Shown: positions 29,489-35,848 of the stretch, piece by piece
Layout: each line of letters begins with the position of its first letter
Numbering within the stretch: position 1 is the stretch's first letter
Source: Actinomycetota bacterium
GTDB lineage: Bacteria; Actinomycetota; Acidimicrobiia; Acidimicrobiales; WLNW01
DNA: 39,477 bases
Assembly: GCA_009699605.1 (NCBI GenBank)
Contig: WLNW01000011.1
Location: 1-39,477 of the forward strand
Direction: 5' to 3'
Notes under the pieces: generated by a model
Database searches by the model: none
Told to the model about the DNA's origin: nothing
What the model saw: only the letters and a program-made list of their open reading frames with translations
Program-made: the position numbers and the translations under genes

Positions 29489-30292
29489 TTACCAGACCAG
29501 GCCGACGCCGCCGTTGGCGCGGAAGGTCGCGCCAGTGGCGAACTTCGACGCGTCGGACGCGAGGTAGTGGATGAGGTGGGCTTGGTCGATGGCCTCGCCG
29601 ACGCGACCGATGGGCGACATCTCGGTGTTGCGGTCGAGGTAGACCTGAAGCTTCGTCTGGTCGACGTTTCCCGCTTCGTCCTTGCGGCCCTGCGCGTTGA
29701 AGTTGGTGGGCGTGCTGCCCGGCGCGATGGAGTTGACGCGAATGCCGTACGGGCCTGCTTCGATGGCCAGCTCGCGGGTGAGCATGGCCACCGCGGCCTT
29801 GGTCATCGCGTACACCGACACGTTCGAGTTGGGGTAGTCGATCGCCGCGGAGGCGACGTTGATGATGCTGCCCGAGCCCTGCGGAATCATGACGCGCAAG
29901 GCGGCCTGGCAGCCGAAGAACACGCCCTTCTGGTTCACCGCGATGACGCGCTCGAGGATCTCCTCGGTGACATCGACGACGAGGTCGGTGTTCATGATGC
30001 CGGCGATATTGCCCATGATGTCGAGGCGGCCGAACTCGGCGACCGCGCGGTCGACGAGCGCCTCGACCTCGGCCTTGATGGCCACGTTGGTGGCCTGTGC
30101 GACGGCTTTGCCACCTTCGCCGCGAATCTTGGCCGCGACGGCTTCGGCCGCGGCGATGTCGACATCGCCGAGCACCACCGCAGCGCCGGCGCTGGCCAGC
30201 AACTCGGCCGAGCATGCGCCGATACCTGAGCCGCCGCCGGTGAGCACCGCGACGCGTCCAGTGAGGTCATAGTCCTTGTATGGATCGATCAT
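29489..30292 (-). CDS. Short-chain dehydrogenase/reductase
   Basis: 267-residue classical SDR, NAD(P)-dependent. Seen: TGGGSGIGACSAELLA (cofactor loop at 18-25), GDVDIAAAE whose Asp favours NAD, NIAGIMN in place of the NAG motif, INVASAA with Ser148, and YAMTK with Tyr161 and Lys165. PGSTPTNF after the active site is typical. With the MDR enzyme just downstream it may carry out two oxidation steps on one alcohol substrate; this is inference. Confidence 0.92.
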   Translation of the reverse strand: MIDPYKDYDLTGRVAVLTGGGSGIGACSAELLASAGAAVVLGDVDIAAAEAVAAKIRGEGGKAVAQATNVAIKAEVEALVDRAVAEFGRLDIMGNIAGIMNTDLVVDVTEEILERVIAVNQKGVFFGCQAALRVMIPQGSGSIINVASAAIDYPNSNVSVYAMTKAAVAMLTRELAIEAGPYGIRVNSIAPGSTPTNFNAQGRKDEAGNVDQTKLQVYLDRNTEMSPIGRVGEAIDQAHLIHYLASDASKFATGATFRANGGVGLVW

Positions 30293-30763: not shown

Positions 30764-31321
30764 TCACTCGGGCGGTGGCAGCTGCTTCAGCAAGAGCTCG
30801 CGGATCTGGGGCGTAAGCGTGTCGGCGATGAGCTGGATCTCGTCGGGCGACCAGATCGCGGTGGGGATGTGCGGATAGCCCACATCAAGGAACTCATAGG
30901 TCTCGTGGCCGCTGATGCGGGCGATGGCGCGAGCAGAACCGATGAGCTCGGTGTGCACGACGCAGGCCGTGGGTATACCGGCCCACTCGAGCTCGACGGC
31001 GTCCCGCAAACTGCGGGCGCTGCAGCTGCCTCAACCACCGAAGCCGGTGATGGCGACGGTGGCTCCTTCGGTGAGGCGGGCCCAGTCGTCGGGATGGGGC
31101 GCGATCGACACGCTGCCTTTGACCACCTTGACCACGCCTGCGAGGTCGTCGGTGGCCATGAGGTTGCGGGCGATGGCGTCGAGCATGTCCTCGCCGCGGC
31201 CGAGCCCGTTGGCCACGAGGCCGAGCACCTGACCGCTGAGGCTGTTCGGGCGCGGCGCGAGCAGCTTGGTGTCGCCGCCCCCGATAGGGCCGCTCGATGG
31301 ATCGAGTCCGATGATGGCCAT
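30764..31321 (-). CDS. UGSC-family selenoprotein (in-frame UGA = Sec97)
   Basis: One 185-residue gene read through a UGA at 31033-31031. Up to the UGA it encodes 96 residues from MAIIGLDPSSGPIGGGD to TVAITGFGG. After it come GSCSARS and 81 more residues (LRDAVELEWAGIPTACVVHTELIG ... LKQLPPPE). Across the UGA the motif is G-G-U-G-S-C-S: Sec97 and Cys100 in a UxxC arrangement like thioredoxin-type redox sites, with Cys120 further on. It fits the UGSC-containing (seleno)protein family; its biochemical function is not known to me. Codon use and GC are the same on both sides, no ribosome site precedes a second start, and a SECIS-like hairpin follows the UGA. Gene ends in a true TGA at 30764. It lies 22 bp after the upstream partner gene. 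If read as two genes, each would be a fragment. Confidence 0.85.
30999..31020 (-). promoter_or_regulatory. Candidate bacterial SECIS element
   Basis: On the minus strand, nucleotides 11-32 after the UGA fold into GCG-CCCGCA, loop GUU, UGCGGG, a bulged A, and CGC: nine pairs with one bulge. A bacterial SECIS needs a short upper stem with a G or GU in the apical loop about 16-37 nt after the UGA; here the loop is at 20-22. The position and loop fit SelB recognition. Confidence 0.65.
31031..31033 (-). other. Recoded UGA (selenocysteine) codon
   Basis: UGA in frame with both halves of the UGSC gene, followed by GGC AGC TGC (Gly-Ser-Cys). It is the 97th codon. No other stop occurs between 31321 and the end at 30764. 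Confidence 0.8.
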
Positions 31322-31343: not shown

Positions 31344-32342
31344 TCAGAGTTGTGCGGGCTCGATGACCCGCGTAATGGCGTGCGCGAGGTGCGGCATCAA
31401 CAGCCACGTCTCGGCCATGCCGGCACCGCCTGCGGCGACGACGAGGATTCCTTCGGGGTAGCCGATGTTGCAGAAGCGGTCGTCGGGGCCCGACGTGGGT
31501 TCGTGAATGCGTTCCCACAGGTAGTGCTGCAGGTCGGCCTTGGACCAGCCCTCTTCGATGAAGTACCGGTGATGTTCCTTACCGACGATAGCCACCACGT
31601 TGTGATCCTGGCCCAGCCACTTGTCGCCGCCGATGCCTTTGCTCCGCATGGTCTTGACGATCGAGTTCGCGATGTCGACGCACGTGCGGCTGGTCATGTC
31701 GGTGGCGGGCACGAAGTTCATGAACGACGCGACGGTCACCGTGGACTGCTCGGCCGCGAAACCGCGCTGCACGTGCAACGGCACCCAGTCGCTGGCTTCT
31801 TCGTTCTCGGCGAAGCAGAACGAGTACCGCATGGGTGAGCTGAAGCTCGCTCGATCGAGGAAACCCGGAATGGCCCGACATACGTTGCGGATGACGAGCC
31901 GCAACGCGCGCCCGATCGTTGCGTTCGGACGGAACCCCGGCCCCAAGCAGCCCTGGCCGCTGGCCACGCCCCACTCGTTGCGGACCGGGCCGTTGATGAT
32001 GACGGTCTGCACCGCGCCTGACAGCGTGCCGGTGGTGGAGTGGCAGTTGCCCATCTCGTCGAGGTGGGCGCGCACCGCCGCGACGACTGCGGGGAAGTAC
32101 TCGGGCCGGCAGCCGGCCATGACCGCGTTGATGGCTGCGTGCTCGGCGGTGACCACCACGGCGCGCGTGGGCACGGAGCCGAGGATCTCGTCGGGTTCGA
32201 GCCCGGCGAGGGTGAGGAAGCGCTGCACCTTCTCGGCTGTGGGTGGTACGACCGGAAGGCCGTCGGTCCAACCGCGCTCGTAGTAGTCCTCGAGCAACTC
32301 GTCGTAGTCGGCGTAGGTGTGTGGTTCAGCCGCGAGCGTCAT
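31344..32342 (-). CDS. Conserved Cys-rich protein of unknown function, partner of the UGSC selenoprotein
   Basis: I do not recognise a named family, though the pattern looks conserved. 332 residues, no signal peptide or membrane segment. Notable stretches: GWTDGLPVVPPTAEKVQRFL, VMAGCRPEYFPAVVAAV, GNCHSTTGTLSGAVQTVIIN, ASGQGCLGPGFRPNATIGRA, SFCFAENEEASDWVPLHV and RFCNIGYPEGILVVAAGG. Seven Cys (78, 100, 132, 155, 176, 221, 291), several next to Gly/Pro turns, is high for GC-rich actinobacterial DNA and suggests metal or redox chemistry. ATG 32342 lies 18 bp after the zinc permease stop and its own stop is 22 bp before the UGSC start. Together they look like a two-component unit, perhaps with the Sec protein reducing or feeding the larger one; that is inference. 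Confidence 0.7.
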   Translation of the reverse strand: MTLAAEPHTYADYDELLEDYYERGWTDGLPVVPPTAEKVQRFLTLAGLEPDEILGSVPTRAVVVTAEHAAINAVMAGCRPEYFPAVVAAVRAHLDEMGNCHSTTGTLSGAVQTVIINGPVRNEWGVASGQGCLGPGFRPNATIGRALRLVIRNVCRAIPGFLDRASFSSPMRYSFCFAENEEASDWVPLHVQRGFAAEQSTVTVASFMNFVPATDMTSRTCVDIANSIVKTMRSKGIGGDKWLGQDHNVVAIVGKEHHRYFIEEGWSKADLQHYLWERIHEPTSGPDDRFCNIGYPEGILVVAAGGAGMAETWLLMPHLAHAITRVIEPAQL

Positions 32343-32360: not shown

Positions 32361-33212
32361 TCACGCAGCCGCCACAGCCTGGATAGCCCGGCGCCGCGTG
32401 GTCCACCGGGACGCGCCGACTACGCCGTACGTGGCAACGAACAACATGGCCGACGCCAGCACGATCGACGCGCCTGCGGCGAAGTCCCATTCGGCGGACG
32501 CGGTGAGTCCGAGCACGCCACTCGCGGCGCCGTAGGCCGCGCCGGCCAACATCGCCGTGCTCACGCGCCGGGTGACGAGGCGTGCGGTCATTGCCGGCAC
32601 GCTCAACAACGCGACCGCGAGGATGGTCCCGACGGCCGGGATGGTGGCCACCACCGTGGCCGCCACCGCGAGCAACAGGGCGAGGTCGAGCAACCGTGGG
32701 TAGCCCTGCGCGGCCGCTCCGTCGGGATCGAAGGCGCGGAACACGAGTTCTTTGTGTGCGCCGGCCAGCGCGCCGAGCACGACGAGCCCCACGACCGAGG
32801 TGATGACCACGTCGCGGTGATCGACGGTGAGCACCGAACCGACAAGGATGGCCGTGAGGTCCTTCGAGAAGCCGTCCTGAGTCGACTGCAGCATGACGCC
32901 GAGCCCGAACGATCCGGCGAGCGCGACGCCGACAGCGGTGTTGTTGTCGAGGTTCTGATCGCCGGTGGTGATGTAGATCACGACCACGAGCAAGGCCGCG
33001 AACGCGAGTCCACCGACGAGCTCGCTTAATCCGATGATCGACGCGAACACGATGCCGGGGAAGGTCGCGTGGGCGACAGTGATCGTGAAGAAGGGCAAGC
33101 GGCGCAGCACCACGTGCGCACCTACCGCGCCGCACAACGCACCCACCAGCACGGCTTCGAGCAGCGCGCGCTGCAGCAGGCCCGAGTCGTACAGATCGAG
33201 GAGGTGTCTCAT
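32361..33212 (-). CDS. Zinc/manganese ABC transporter permease (second)
   Basis: A 283-residue inner-membrane permease of the ABC-3 (ZnuB/TroC) family with about 8-9 hydrophobic segments. Seen: LRRLPFFTITVAHATFPGI, GTILAVALLSVPAMTARLVTRR and GLTASAEWDFAAGASIVLASAM, all in family positions. ATG 33212 overlaps the stop of the first permease (ATGA), so they are coupled and probably form a heterodimer. The open frame upstream to 33437 lies inside the first permease and is not used. Confidence 0.88.
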   Translation of the reverse strand: MRHLLDLYDSGLLQRALLEAVLVGALCGAVGAHVVLRRLPFFTITVAHATFPGIVFASIIGLSELVGGLAFAALLVVVIYITTGDQNLDNNTAVGVALAGSFGLGVMLQSTQDGFSKDLTAILVGSVLTVDHRDVVITSVVGLVVLGALAGAHKELVFRAFDPDGAAAQGYPRLLDLALLLAVAATVVATIPAVGTILAVALLSVPAMTARLVTRRVSTAMLAGAAYGAASGVLGLTASAEWDFAAGASIVLASAMLFVATYGVVGASRWTTRRRAIQAVAAA

Positions 33213-34090
33213 GTCGCGACCGCGGCGAGCGTGCGCCTGCGGGCCATGCCGGTGCGCAACGCCTGCGCGATCGCCACTACGGCAAAGAGGGCGGTGAGCA
33301 CGACGACGATCGTGGCTCCGGCGGCGAGGCGTATGCCGTGGTGCACCGACGCGTCGTAGCTGATGACGAGGCCGAGCCACGCGGCCAGCGCGCTGATGCC
33401 GACGGCGCTCATCATCAGGGACTGCAGCCGCGAGCACAGCAGACGGGCCGTTGCCGCAGGCGTGATGAGTAAAGCGACCACGAGTGCCGTGCCCACCGCG
33501 CGGACTGCGGCGACCACCACCAGCGCGACGACGAGGTTCACGGCGAGGTCGATCCGTAGCAGCGAATAGCCCATTGCTTCGGCACCGGTCTCGTCGAACG
33601 CGCGCAGCAGGAGTTCCTTGCGGATCGCGACCAGCACCCCGAGTGCGACGACGGCAACGGCGGCGGTGGTGATGATGTCGGCAGTATCGACCGCGAGGAC
33701 GCGTCCGAAGAGGAGGGTGGTGAGATCGGCCGAGTAGCTGCGGTGGCGTGAAACCACGATCACGCCGATCGAGAACAGGCTCGCCAGCACCAACGCCATG
33801 AACGCGTCCTGGTCGATGCGGGTGCTGCGTGCCGCGAACGTGAGCAGCGTCGCGGCAACGGCACCGGCGATGAGCGCCCCGACGAAGAGCGATTCACCCG
33901 CGACGAACGCGATTGCAATGCCGGGGAACACGCTGTGGGTGAGCGCGTCGGTCATGAACGACAGTCGGCGGAGCTGCACCACGACGCCGACGACACCGGA
34001 AAGCGCGGCGAGCAAAAGCGAGATCACGAGCGCGCGCTGCATGTACGCGGGTGCGAACGGTTCGGTGAGGAAGCGGATGATTCCGAGCAC
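33209..34090 (-). CDS. Zinc/manganese ABC transporter permease (first)
   Basis: A 293-residue ABC-3 family permease. Seen: VVQLRRLSFMTDALTHSVFPGIAIAF, the family's most conserved stretch (LRRxxFxxDALxHxxxPG), AVGTALVVALLITPAATARLL and about 8 membrane segments. It ends in a cytoplasmic basic tail (ALRTGMARRRTL). The start is GTG 34090, 18 bp after the ATPase stop. A second permease follows; systems with two different permeases are common in the manganese/zinc TroCD-like group. Confidence 0.88.
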   Translation of the reverse strand: MLGIIRFLTEPFAPAYMQRALVISLLLAALSGVVGVVVQLRRLSFMTDALTHSVFPGIAIAFVAGESLFVGALIAGAVAATLLTFAARSTRIDQDAFMALVLASLFSIGVIVVSRHRSYSADLTTLLFGRVLAVDTADIITTAAVAVVALGVLVAIRKELLLRAFDETGAEAMGYSLLRIDLAVNLVVALVVVAAVRAVGTALVVALLITPAATARLLCSRLQSLMMSAVGISALAAWLGLVISYDASVHHGIRLAAGATIVVVLTALFAVVAIAQALRTGMARRRTLAAVAT

Positions 34091-34108
34091 GAGCGTATGG
34101 GCCGGCGA

Positions 34109-34861
34109 TCAGTGGGTGGAGAGCAGCGCCGTGCCCTCGGCCAGCATCACGGCGTGATGGCCGTAGGTGGCCTTCAACGTGTCGGCGGTGAGCGCGTCGT
34201 CGAGGCGCCCGAAGGCCACCTGGTGACGGTTCAGCAGGCACGCGTGCCCGCACGCGAGGTGGGCGACGGAGATGTCATGGGTGGCCATGACCACGGCCGT
34301 ACCTGCAGCACGTAGGCGGCCGAGGACCTCGATGAGCACGTCCTGAGTGACGGAGTCGACGCCGTTGAACGGCTCGTCGAGCAATAGCAGCTTGGCGTCC
34401 TGGGCAATCGCGCGGGCGATGAGTACCCGCTGGCGCTGGCCACCTGAAAGCACGCCGAACGAGTCGTTTGCCCGGTCGGCCAGGCCCACCTGTTCGAGTG
34501 CATCGAGCGTGGCGGCGCGGTCGACGCGGCCCGGACGGCGGAGCCAGCCGATCCGGCGGTAGCGGCCCATGAGCGCGACCTGTTGCACCGAGATCGGGAA
34601 CCGTGCGTCGAGATGGTCAATCTGGGGCACGTAGGCCACCAGCGGCCGGGCCTTGGCGGGTGTGGTGCCGAGGACCTCGACGAAGCCGCTCGACGCCGGG
34701 ACGAGCCCGAGGATCGCCTTGATGAACGTGGACTTCCCGGCACCGTTCGGACCGATGAGCGCCACCGAGTCGCCGGGTTGCAGCAACGCGTGCACGTCGC
34801 GCAGCACGACCTCACGGTCGTAGGTGACGCATAGGTCGTGGACGTGGAGGGCGTTGGTCAT
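34109..34861 (-). CDS. Zinc/manganese ABC transporter ATP-binding protein
   Basis: Energises metal uptake from the cytoplasmic side. 250 residues with all ABC motifs: Walker A GPNGAGKST at about 38-46, Q-loop AYVPQIDHLDARFP, signature LSGGQRQRVLIARA, Walker B LLLLDEP and the switch His in MATHDIS. The opening LHVHDLCVTYDREVVLRDV is usual for ZnuC/MntB-type proteins. ATG 34861 overlaps the lipoprotein stop by 4 bp. Confidence 0.92.
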   Translation of the reverse strand: MTNALHVHDLCVTYDREVVLRDVHALLQPGDSVALIGPNGAGKSTFIKAILGLVPASSGFVEVLGTTPAKARPLVAYVPQIDHLDARFPISVQQVALMGRYRRIGWLRRPGRVDRAATLDALEQVGLADRANDSFGVLSGGQRQRVLIARAIAQDAKLLLLDEPFNGVDSVTQDVLIEVLGRLRAAGTAVVMATHDISVAHLACGHACLLNRHQVAFGRLDDALTADTLKATYGHHAVMLAEGTALLSTH

Positions 34862-35790
34862 CGGAGGCTCGACGCAATCGTCTGGGCGTTGTGGCGCATC
34901 ATCGTGAGGTAAGTGGCCCCGTCGGAGCCCGCCGGGCCCAAGCCGTCACCATAGAGGGCGTCGTCGCCCTCGACGACCTTGACCCCGGCGTCGGCCGCGA
35001 TCGATGCCGCGGTCTTGGCCGGCAACGAGCTCTCGGAGAACACCGCCTTGACCCCTTCAGCCTTGATCGCGGTGACCAGGTTGCGGAGGTCGGAGGCGGA
35101 CAGGTCGGCGGAGGTGTCGAAGCTGGGGATGATCGATCCGACGAACGTGAGCCCGTAGCGGTCGACGAAGTACCCGAACGCGTCGTGGTTCGTCACGAGC
35201 TTCTTGTTGGTGAGCGTGTCGATGTCGGCCGCGATCTCGGTGTCGAGGGAGCGAAGCGCCGCGACGTAGGTCGCGAGGTTGGCGGCGTACACCGACGCGC
35301 CGGCCGGGTCGGCTGCGGTGAACGCTGCGGCGATCGTGGTGACCATGCGCGTCGCGTTGCGGGGGTCGTGCCAGATGTGCGGGTCGCCGTGATCATGAGC
35401 GGCGTCGCGGTCCGCCGCCGGGAGGTCGCGCACGGTGATCCCCTCACTCGCGTCGGCCACCGTGGCCTTCGTGCCGCTCGAGCGGATCGTGTCGTCCAGC
35501 CATTCCTCGAGGCCGACGCCGTTCTTGACGATCACCCGCGCCTTGGCAATGGCGTCGAGGTCGGCCGGCGCCGGTTCGTAGTCGTGGGGGTCGACGTTCG
35601 GCTTCAGTAGGCCGTAGATGCCCACCCGCTCGCCGCCGATGACCGCGGCGAAGTCGGTGAGCACCGTGGTGGTGGTCACGACCTGGAGCGGGGCGTCGGG
35701 GTTCGATGATTGGCGCGACCCGCCTGCGTCGGCACCACACGCGGCGACGAGCGAGGTCGCCACGAGCGCCATGACCAGCAACCGACGCAT
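34858..35790 (-). CDS. Zinc-type metal ABC transporter substrate-binding lipoprotein
   Basis: Captures the metal outside the membrane. 310 residues from ATG 35790 (AGAGGA 6 nt upstream); the ATG at 35820 would add 10 residues and spoil the signal peptide. The signal MRRLLVMALVATSLVAAC ends in a lipobox with Cys18. Metal ligands by family position are His69 (DPHDYEP), His138 (GDPHIWH) and His202 (TNHDAFGYF). Three His ligands, with His rather than Glu at the third, favour zinc over manganese. The His-rich loop (AAHDHGDPH) is short. It is the first gene of the operon and has a promoter with two operator-like boxes upstream. Confidence 0.9.
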   Translation of the reverse strand: MRRLLVMALVATSLVAACGADAGGSRQSSNPDAPLQVVTTTTVLTDFAAVIGGERVGIYGLLKPNVDPHDYEPAPADLDAIAKARVIVKNGVGLEEWLDDTIRSSGTKATVADASEGITVRDLPAADRDAAHDHGDPHIWHDPRNATRMVTTIAAAFTAADPAGASVYAANLATYVAALRSLDTEIAADIDTLTNKKLVTNHDAFGYFVDRYGLTFVGSIIPSFDTSADLSASDLRNLVTAIKAEGVKAVFSESSLPAKTAASIAADAGVKVVEGDDALYGDGLGPAGSDGATYLTMMRHNAQTIASSLR

Positions 35791-35804
35791 CACGTTCCTC
35801 TCGG

Positions 35805-35819
35805 TGGGATTGATTCTCA
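35805..35819. promoter_or_regulatory. Fur/Zur-type operator, box 1
   Basis: TGGGATTGATTCTCA is a 7-1-7 palindrome of the TGAGAAT-n-ATTCTCA type, five of seven pairs matching. It lies 15 bp before the lipoprotein ATG, over the expected transcription start. Confidence 0.55.
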
Positions 35820-35848
35820 ACTCTAGCCCTAGTGGGAATGAATCTCAA
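35820..35848 (-). promoter_or_regulatory. Promoter of the zinc transporter operon
   Basis: On the minus strand, TTGAGA (35848-35843), a 17-bp spacer, and TAGAGT (35825-35820): 5/6 and 4/6 matches to the sigma-70 consensus. The start of transcription would be near 35812. The -35 overlaps box 35833-35847 and the expected start falls in box 35805-35819. Confidence 0.5.
35833..35847. promoter_or_regulatory. Fur/Zur-type operator, box 2
   Basis: TGGGAATGAATCTCA differs from box 1 at two symmetric positions only and lies 28 bp away in the same orientation, about 2.7 helical turns. It overlaps the -35 of the transporter promoter. With box 1 it suggests repression by a Fur-family protein such as Zur when metal is ample. 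Confidence 0.55.

Follow-up and report, generated by a model that had tools for sequence, protein, structure and literature searches.

A selenocysteine codon in a UGSC-family gene of an acidimicrobial genome, its constant partner gene and a remote relationship to GrdB and PrdB

Standard gene calling divides a short stretch of the window (the whole 39,477 nucleotides of DNA analysed here) into two small open reading frames on either side of a UGA codon. Are these frames one selenoprotein gene and, if so, what might its product do? An earlier note on this DNA had joined the two frames into a selenoprotein of the UGSC family, which has been known since 2008; published descriptions of the family give no function and assume a thioredoxin-like fold (PMC2398784). 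With 255 sequences in the GOS survey, it ranked among the most abundant selenoprotein families (PMC2398784). The analysis reported here goes beyond the earlier note in an adjacent partner gene, nine further paralogues and a link to glycine and proline reductases. The source genome is a 3.45-Mb MAG that is 96% complete, and the features of the locus are listed in Table 1.

Table 1 Features of the UGSC locus and its surroundings in the window
Feature	Position	Strand	Remarks
Short-chain dehydrogenase	29489..30292	minus	Downstream of the pair; named by similarity to an annotated SDR; catabolic context
UGSC-family selenoprotein gene	31321 to 30764	minus	185 residues including Sec97; ATG 31321-31319, terminal TGA 30766-30764
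SECIS-like hairpin	30999..31020	minus	Stem of 6 and 3 bp around a bulge; spans +11 to +32 from the UGA; GUU loop, +20..+22
In-frame UGA, predicted selenocysteine	31031..31033	minus	First residue of UGSC; from translation and homologue alignment
Partner gene, uncharacterised family	31344..32342	minus	332 aa; immediately precedes the UGSC gene, with 22 bp between them
Mn/Zn-type ABC transporter	32361..35820	minus	ZnuA-like binding protein, ATPase and two ABC-3 permeases; upstream of the pair

One reading frame across the UGA

Mechanical ORF calling reproduced the two short frames of the earlier note, 96 residues (31321-31031) and 81 residues from TTG 31009, and the note was also correct in placing seven codons between the UGA and this next start. 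Translated with TGA as selenocysteine (Sec), the minus strand gives one protein, ...ITGFGG-U-GSCSARSLRDAVELEWAG..., in which Sec97 stands in the context GFGG-U-GSCSARS. The PF24696 (UGSC) profile matches it at 125.7 bits against a cut-off of 25, over residues 19-178 and thus on both sides of the UGA, which bears out the single 185-residue protein, the family assignment and the UxxC motif that the note had proposed. Its read-through gene therefore stood, and the strand, which it had left unstated, is minus. Membership of the UGSC family (PF24696, NF041046; PMC2398784) is direct, with the UGSC motif and a UGA or Cys codon at the same place; the score against the NCBIfam equivalog NF041046 is 83.8, below the cut-off of 125, so the window protein represents a divergent subfamily.

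The best homologues are found in Acidimicrobiia MAGs. All 22 of 22 homologues on assembled genome contigs have the same UGA, followed by conserved protein, and the alignment suggested in the note has Sec or Cys at the site across the family, conservation on both sides and no stop at the UGA. Of 32 aligned family genes, 31 have TGA at the site and the remaining one has TGC. A misread TGC at 31031-31033, which the note had asked to have checked, is excluded because the UGA recurs in 31 of these 32 genes from many independent assemblies. In close pairs of UGSC genes, nonsynonymous substitutions are few compared with synonymous ones both before and after the UGA; for one pair (L029 and L034), dN/dS is ~0.04 on each side (dN 0.038 and 0.048, dS ~0.9-1.1). 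The same genome encodes all four components of the Sec machinery that the note required outside the window: selA (contig C193, 395 bits), selB (contig C33), selD (contig C168, 377 bits) and tRNA-Sec with anticodon TCA (UCA in RNA; contig C3). C33 and C193 share exactly 149 bases at their ends, which makes selA and selB neighbours.

The nine-pair hairpin with a GUU loop lies 11-32 nt past the UGA, where the note had put it, with the sequence GCG-CCCGCA-GUU-UGCGGG-A-CGC and one bulged A; as is characteristic of bacterial SECIS elements, the stem-loop is just 3' of the UGA and G starts the loop. Taken alone, the window hairpin is only mildly unusual (an equally long stem arises there in ~4% of synonymous recodings). 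Whole-window fold energy was ordinary and not significant as SECIS evidence, so stems were compared at a fixed position. A stem of at least 5 bp at the exact position occurs at 55 of 63 distinct Sec sites versus 1 of 11 Cys sites (Fisher p = 6e-7), and the serine codon bearing the loop is AGT (~4% of all serine codons here) at 52 of 63 Sec sites versus 1 of 11 Cys sites (Fisher 5e-6), both p-values being optimistic because the sites are related. In the 8-pair helix, 86% of cells are paired, compensatory changes are present, and covariation exceeds every slid register, scoring 0.303 versus 0.126 in shuffles (0/500). As judged from these alignments, evidence for a SECIS role is weak for the window alone and strong across the family.

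Two separate small genes, or a pseudogene carrying a TGC-to-TGA error, with no selenoprotein in either case, would also yield the two ORFs of a standard call. We consider this very improbable, given that the UGA is kept in tens of independent assemblies, that purifying selection acts on both sides of it, that the hairpin is specific to Sec sites and that the Sec machinery is complete in the genome. The window gene is almost certainly a genuine selenoprotein of the UGSC family, and we have scarcely any doubt that UGA 31033-31031 is decoded as Sec through the hairpin in the coding sequence that follows, by the genome's own SelA, SelB, SelD and tRNA-Sec.

A partner gene at the UGSC loci

Every UGSC copy in the source genome with enough flanking sequence has a partner beside it, and these partners form a single family of 330-420 aa (typically ~340 residues). 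The partner had no match in Pfam, NCBIfam or PDB sequences, nor among PDB folds, and no partner gene was found in phages; conserved residues of the family include D27, R145, C176 and E179. It is probably the 'Unknown_1' of a UGSC/'Unknown_1' fusion noted in 2008 (PMC2398784). We found no constant partner described in the UGSC literature beyond that remark; the remark aside, the obligate partner, the relationship to GrdB and PrdB, the predicted non-thioredoxin fold and the copy expansion are absent from the UGSC papers that were found.

Across 119 genomes of the class, the partner directly adjoins 86 of 91 UGSC genes in the same orientation, upstream in 52 and downstream in 34, with spacing usually <130 bp; some of the five unpaired genes are contig-end truncations. 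UGSC genes occur in 41 of the 119 genomes and partner genes in 41, with both in 40. Distance matrices of the two proteins correlate (Mantel 0.69; best of 500 permutations 0.17), a value to which shared species history contributes. The pair also occurs in haloarchaea, Alphaproteobacteria, Betaproteobacteria, Arthrobacter and other actinobacterial classes, the last of which repeat the pairing at 12 of 13 loci when weak or degenerate UGSC matches are counted. Plasmid-borne pairs were found in haloarchaea, Roseovarius, Paracoccus, Variovorax, Acidovorax and Arthrobacter, and fused UGSC-partner forms in Variovorax boronicumulans, Vibrio and Sporomusa.

Of the ten UGSC genes in the source genome, nine have UGA and one has Cys; the maximum in any other genome of the 119-genome class sample is seven. 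Eight UGSC-partner pairs are present and a ninth has one gene on each of contigs C117 and C146, which share a terminal overlap of exactly 149 bases; the Cys copy (CGSC, contig C83) has the partner fused at its C-terminus. In the pair analysis, each of the source genome's copies that were compared resembles a copy from elsewhere more than it does most of its siblings, the sole alike siblings being L054 and L055 (55%); the copies are therefore mostly old subfamilies and not recent duplicates.

Several loci depart from the simple pair. In Halalkalicoccus jeotgali (L207) and Halorientalis litorea (L211), a single UGSC gene lies between two partner-family genes. In Vibrio europaeus (L209), Sporomusa termitida (L210) and genome G244 (L222), MGTS replaces [U/C]GSC in fused or neighbouring forms, a branch in which the redox residues are lost and the partner is kept. 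One contig (L226, G287:C272) carries four partner-family genes and no detected UGSC gene. Given the MGTS branch and this contig, the partner may also act where UGSC chemistry is absent. Partner proteins were also considered as selenoproteins and rejected: when the rows with one TGA were re-scanned, only L127 had a TGA in the aligned region, at its very end, consistent with a normal stop.

Predicted fold and remote homology to GrdB and PrdB

In the AF2 model of the UGSC protein (pLDDT 91.2), five parallel strands form a beta-alpha-beta fold and the UGSC motif opens a helix. A Foldseek search with this model returned weak flavodoxin/Rossmann matches and no thioredoxin in the top 50, and no convincing PDB relative was found by sequence. 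The thioredoxin fold is accordingly rejected on the model and the Foldseek result, and the predicted fold is flavodoxin-like.

Profile comparison points to a more specific relative. With hhalign, UGSC profiles align to the Sec domain of PF07355 (GrdB/PrdB) at 92.3 and 95.6%, matching U, C and GIPT each to its counterpart, although the profiles are shallow (Neff 3-5). Controls gave ≤0.7% for shuffled columns, 0.4% for reversed profiles, 0.1% for the partner and ≤3.7% for non-UGSC proteins; randomising both catalytic columns left 60-89%, and the region after UxxC alone gave 92%. The shared segment of ~80 residues comprises a strand, UxxC at the N-terminus of a helix, ExxGIPT, a second strand and P-x-P-(L)G. 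UGSC further resembles GrdB in having a putative second subunit and in the putatively substrate-specific copies that multiply within a genome (compare PMC10838667); a link to thioredoxin reductase is seen at some loci. In contrast to GrdB, it lacks the N-terminal domain, goes unrecognised by PF07355 and occurs in presumably aerobic lineages and haloarchaea. GrdE was rejected as an identity for the partner (hhalign 0.1%), and since the partner has no similarity to GrdE, no pyruvoyl chemistry can be assumed. Because the window protein has no PF07355 match, the source genome has no PF07355 or PF09338 genes (that is, no grd genes) and the partner is not GrdE, the profile alignments argue for remote homology of UGSC to the GrdB/PrdB Sec domain and not for membership of PF07355.

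Other proteins of the class do match PF07355, and these continue through an in-frame TGA (GVDVVLLT-PV-U-PLC-TRTV...GLATV...EFPLGRPLG). PrdB-like proteins of the class (L186-L197) run through the TGA, mostly within PxUPxC, past the end of the PF07355 match and are likely to be unannotated selenoproteins.

Genomic neighbourhoods and a proposed reaction

In the window, the transporter and the pair probably form one operon because they are tightly spaced on the same strand; this linkage was not seen in relatives L029-L050 and is not conserved. Annotated neighbours of the pairs are catabolic and include CoA-transferases, thiolases, SDRs, P450s, tricarboxylate/TRAP transporters and hydantoinases. 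A thioredoxin-reductase-like CxxC flavoprotein is encoded ≤3 genes from the pair in 7 of 17 plasmid loci, all Cys-type: Variovorax SRS16, Roseovarius THAF8, Arthrobacter (with trxA), V. boronicumulans, Haloterrigena, Halosolutus and Neorhizobium. This linkage is absent from the window and from the loci of other actinobacterial classes (0 of 13), and a thioredoxin reductase gene is 1 of 615 neighbours in the class. Operons for glycine reductase (grd) carry trxB and often trxA (PMC2897892, PMC10536192). In the Sec-type actinobacterial set, the pair is adjoined at 11 loci by a small CxxC protein that resembles the NifU C-terminal-like domain (PF01106) and differs from it in its motif, C-x-x-C-V-[ML]-[PA], usually ending in -P. 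On an Arthrobacter sp. ERGS1:01 plasmid (L206, 9006-9821), UGSC is fused to a NifU-like domain with CSDCVMP, which matches the stand-alone NifU-like neighbours in Acidimicrobiia.

We lean towards a reading of UGSC and its partner as a two-subunit reductase in which the partner holds the substrate for attack by a selenolate and dithiols then reduce the resulting Se-S bond. The Sec-decoding features, the constant pairing, the fusions, the remote homology and, in some lineages, the linkage to thioredoxin reductase or NifU-like genes are the observations behind it; complex formation, the chemistry and the direction of the reaction would follow by analogy with the published scheme for glycine and proline reductase (PMC10298544). 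Weighing against it are the lack of PF07355 and PF09338 genes in the source genome, the dissimilarity of the partner to GrdE, the shallow profiles, the restriction of thioredoxin reductase linkage to Cys-type plasmid loci, and the MGTS branch and four-partner contig described above. UGSC would be the nucleophile-bearing subunit, presenting U-G-S-C at the N-terminus of a helix in a flavodoxin-like alpha/beta fold, and the partner would hold and activate a small substrate, probably a carboxylate or an acyl-CoA-pathway intermediate. The Sec selenolate would attack carbon and break a C-N, C-O, C-S or C-halogen bond to expel the leaving group, after which the UGSC cysteine would cleave the Se-C bond to give a selenenylsulfide, and thioredoxin with thioredoxin reductase, or the NifU-like CxxC protein, would reduce this back. 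Divergent pairs in different catabolic clusters could then be substrate-specific versions, comparable to the multiple protein B complexes of glycine reductase. Precedents include grd-like operons assigned to C-F cleavage of fluoroacetate and a strain with eight grdB genes (PMC10838667).

The earlier default, a general thiol-disulfide or peroxide oxidoreductase of thioredoxin-like type with the partner as protein client or scaffold, would account for the UxxC motif and the thioredoxin reductase neighbours at some loci, and the 2008 GOS paper called a thioredoxin-like fold likely (PMC2398784). We regard it as unlikely, since the model is of the parallel five-strand flavodoxin/Rossmann type with no thioredoxin in the Foldseek top 50, and a housekeeping redoxin would hardly be expected to have a dedicated, constant partner, to exist in ten divergent copies or to lie in catabolic neighbourhoods. 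Just as unlikely, in our judgement, is a metal- or Fe-S-dependent lyase, dehydratase or dehalogenase in which Sec or Cys ligates a metal, a NifU-like protein gives the cluster and a Zn/Mn transporter the metal. Such an enzyme would fit the NifU-like neighbours, the Arthrobacter UGSC-NifU fusion and the ZnuA-type transporter genes that adjoin the pair in Acidovorax as well as in the window. However, the invariant UGSC residues are U-G-x-C only and neither protein has a conserved multi-Cys ligand set; the transporter linkage is found in only two loci, and the C-terminal CxxC domains of NifU can serve as thiol carriers as well.

For the two-subunit reductase, a broader formulation is more tentative and, in our estimate, slightly short of an even chance: the pairs may constitute an unrecognised class of Sec/Cys reductases, distant cousins of glycine and proline reductase in aerobic actinobacteria, proteobacteria and haloarchaea, in which the place of the pyruvoyl subunit is taken by a substrate-binding one for which Pfam, NCBIfam and the PDB offer no detectable relative, and which may have expanded and specialised by substrate for environmental organics, possibly for reductive amine or halogen removal. 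A partner, a plausible superfamily and a likely reductant together give a testable enzyme hypothesis for UGSC. If it is true, glycine-reductase-type selenium chemistry, with its unusual Se-C bond cleavage, would extend beyond anaerobes.

Sec-type pairs also occur on plasmids. In Acidovorax sp. T1, the pair lies on a conjugative plasmid, the IncP plasmid p2-T1 (L202), near an IS1071 transposase and with a gene for a ZnuA-type binding protein just downstream of the partner; at the UGSC gene, the partial gene table has only an overlapping 97-aa hypothetical protein. On plasmid pFER4 of Paracoccus ferrooxidans (L212, 7399-14146), a UGA-type UGSC gene beside the partner is annotated as two hypothetical proteins, and selB lies ~3.3 kb downstream on the same plasmid. 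Because this record, the one partly annotated plasmid record examined here that has a Sec form and CDSs listed on both sides of the UGA, splits the gene into two small hypothetical proteins, Sec-type UGSC copies are easy to miss.
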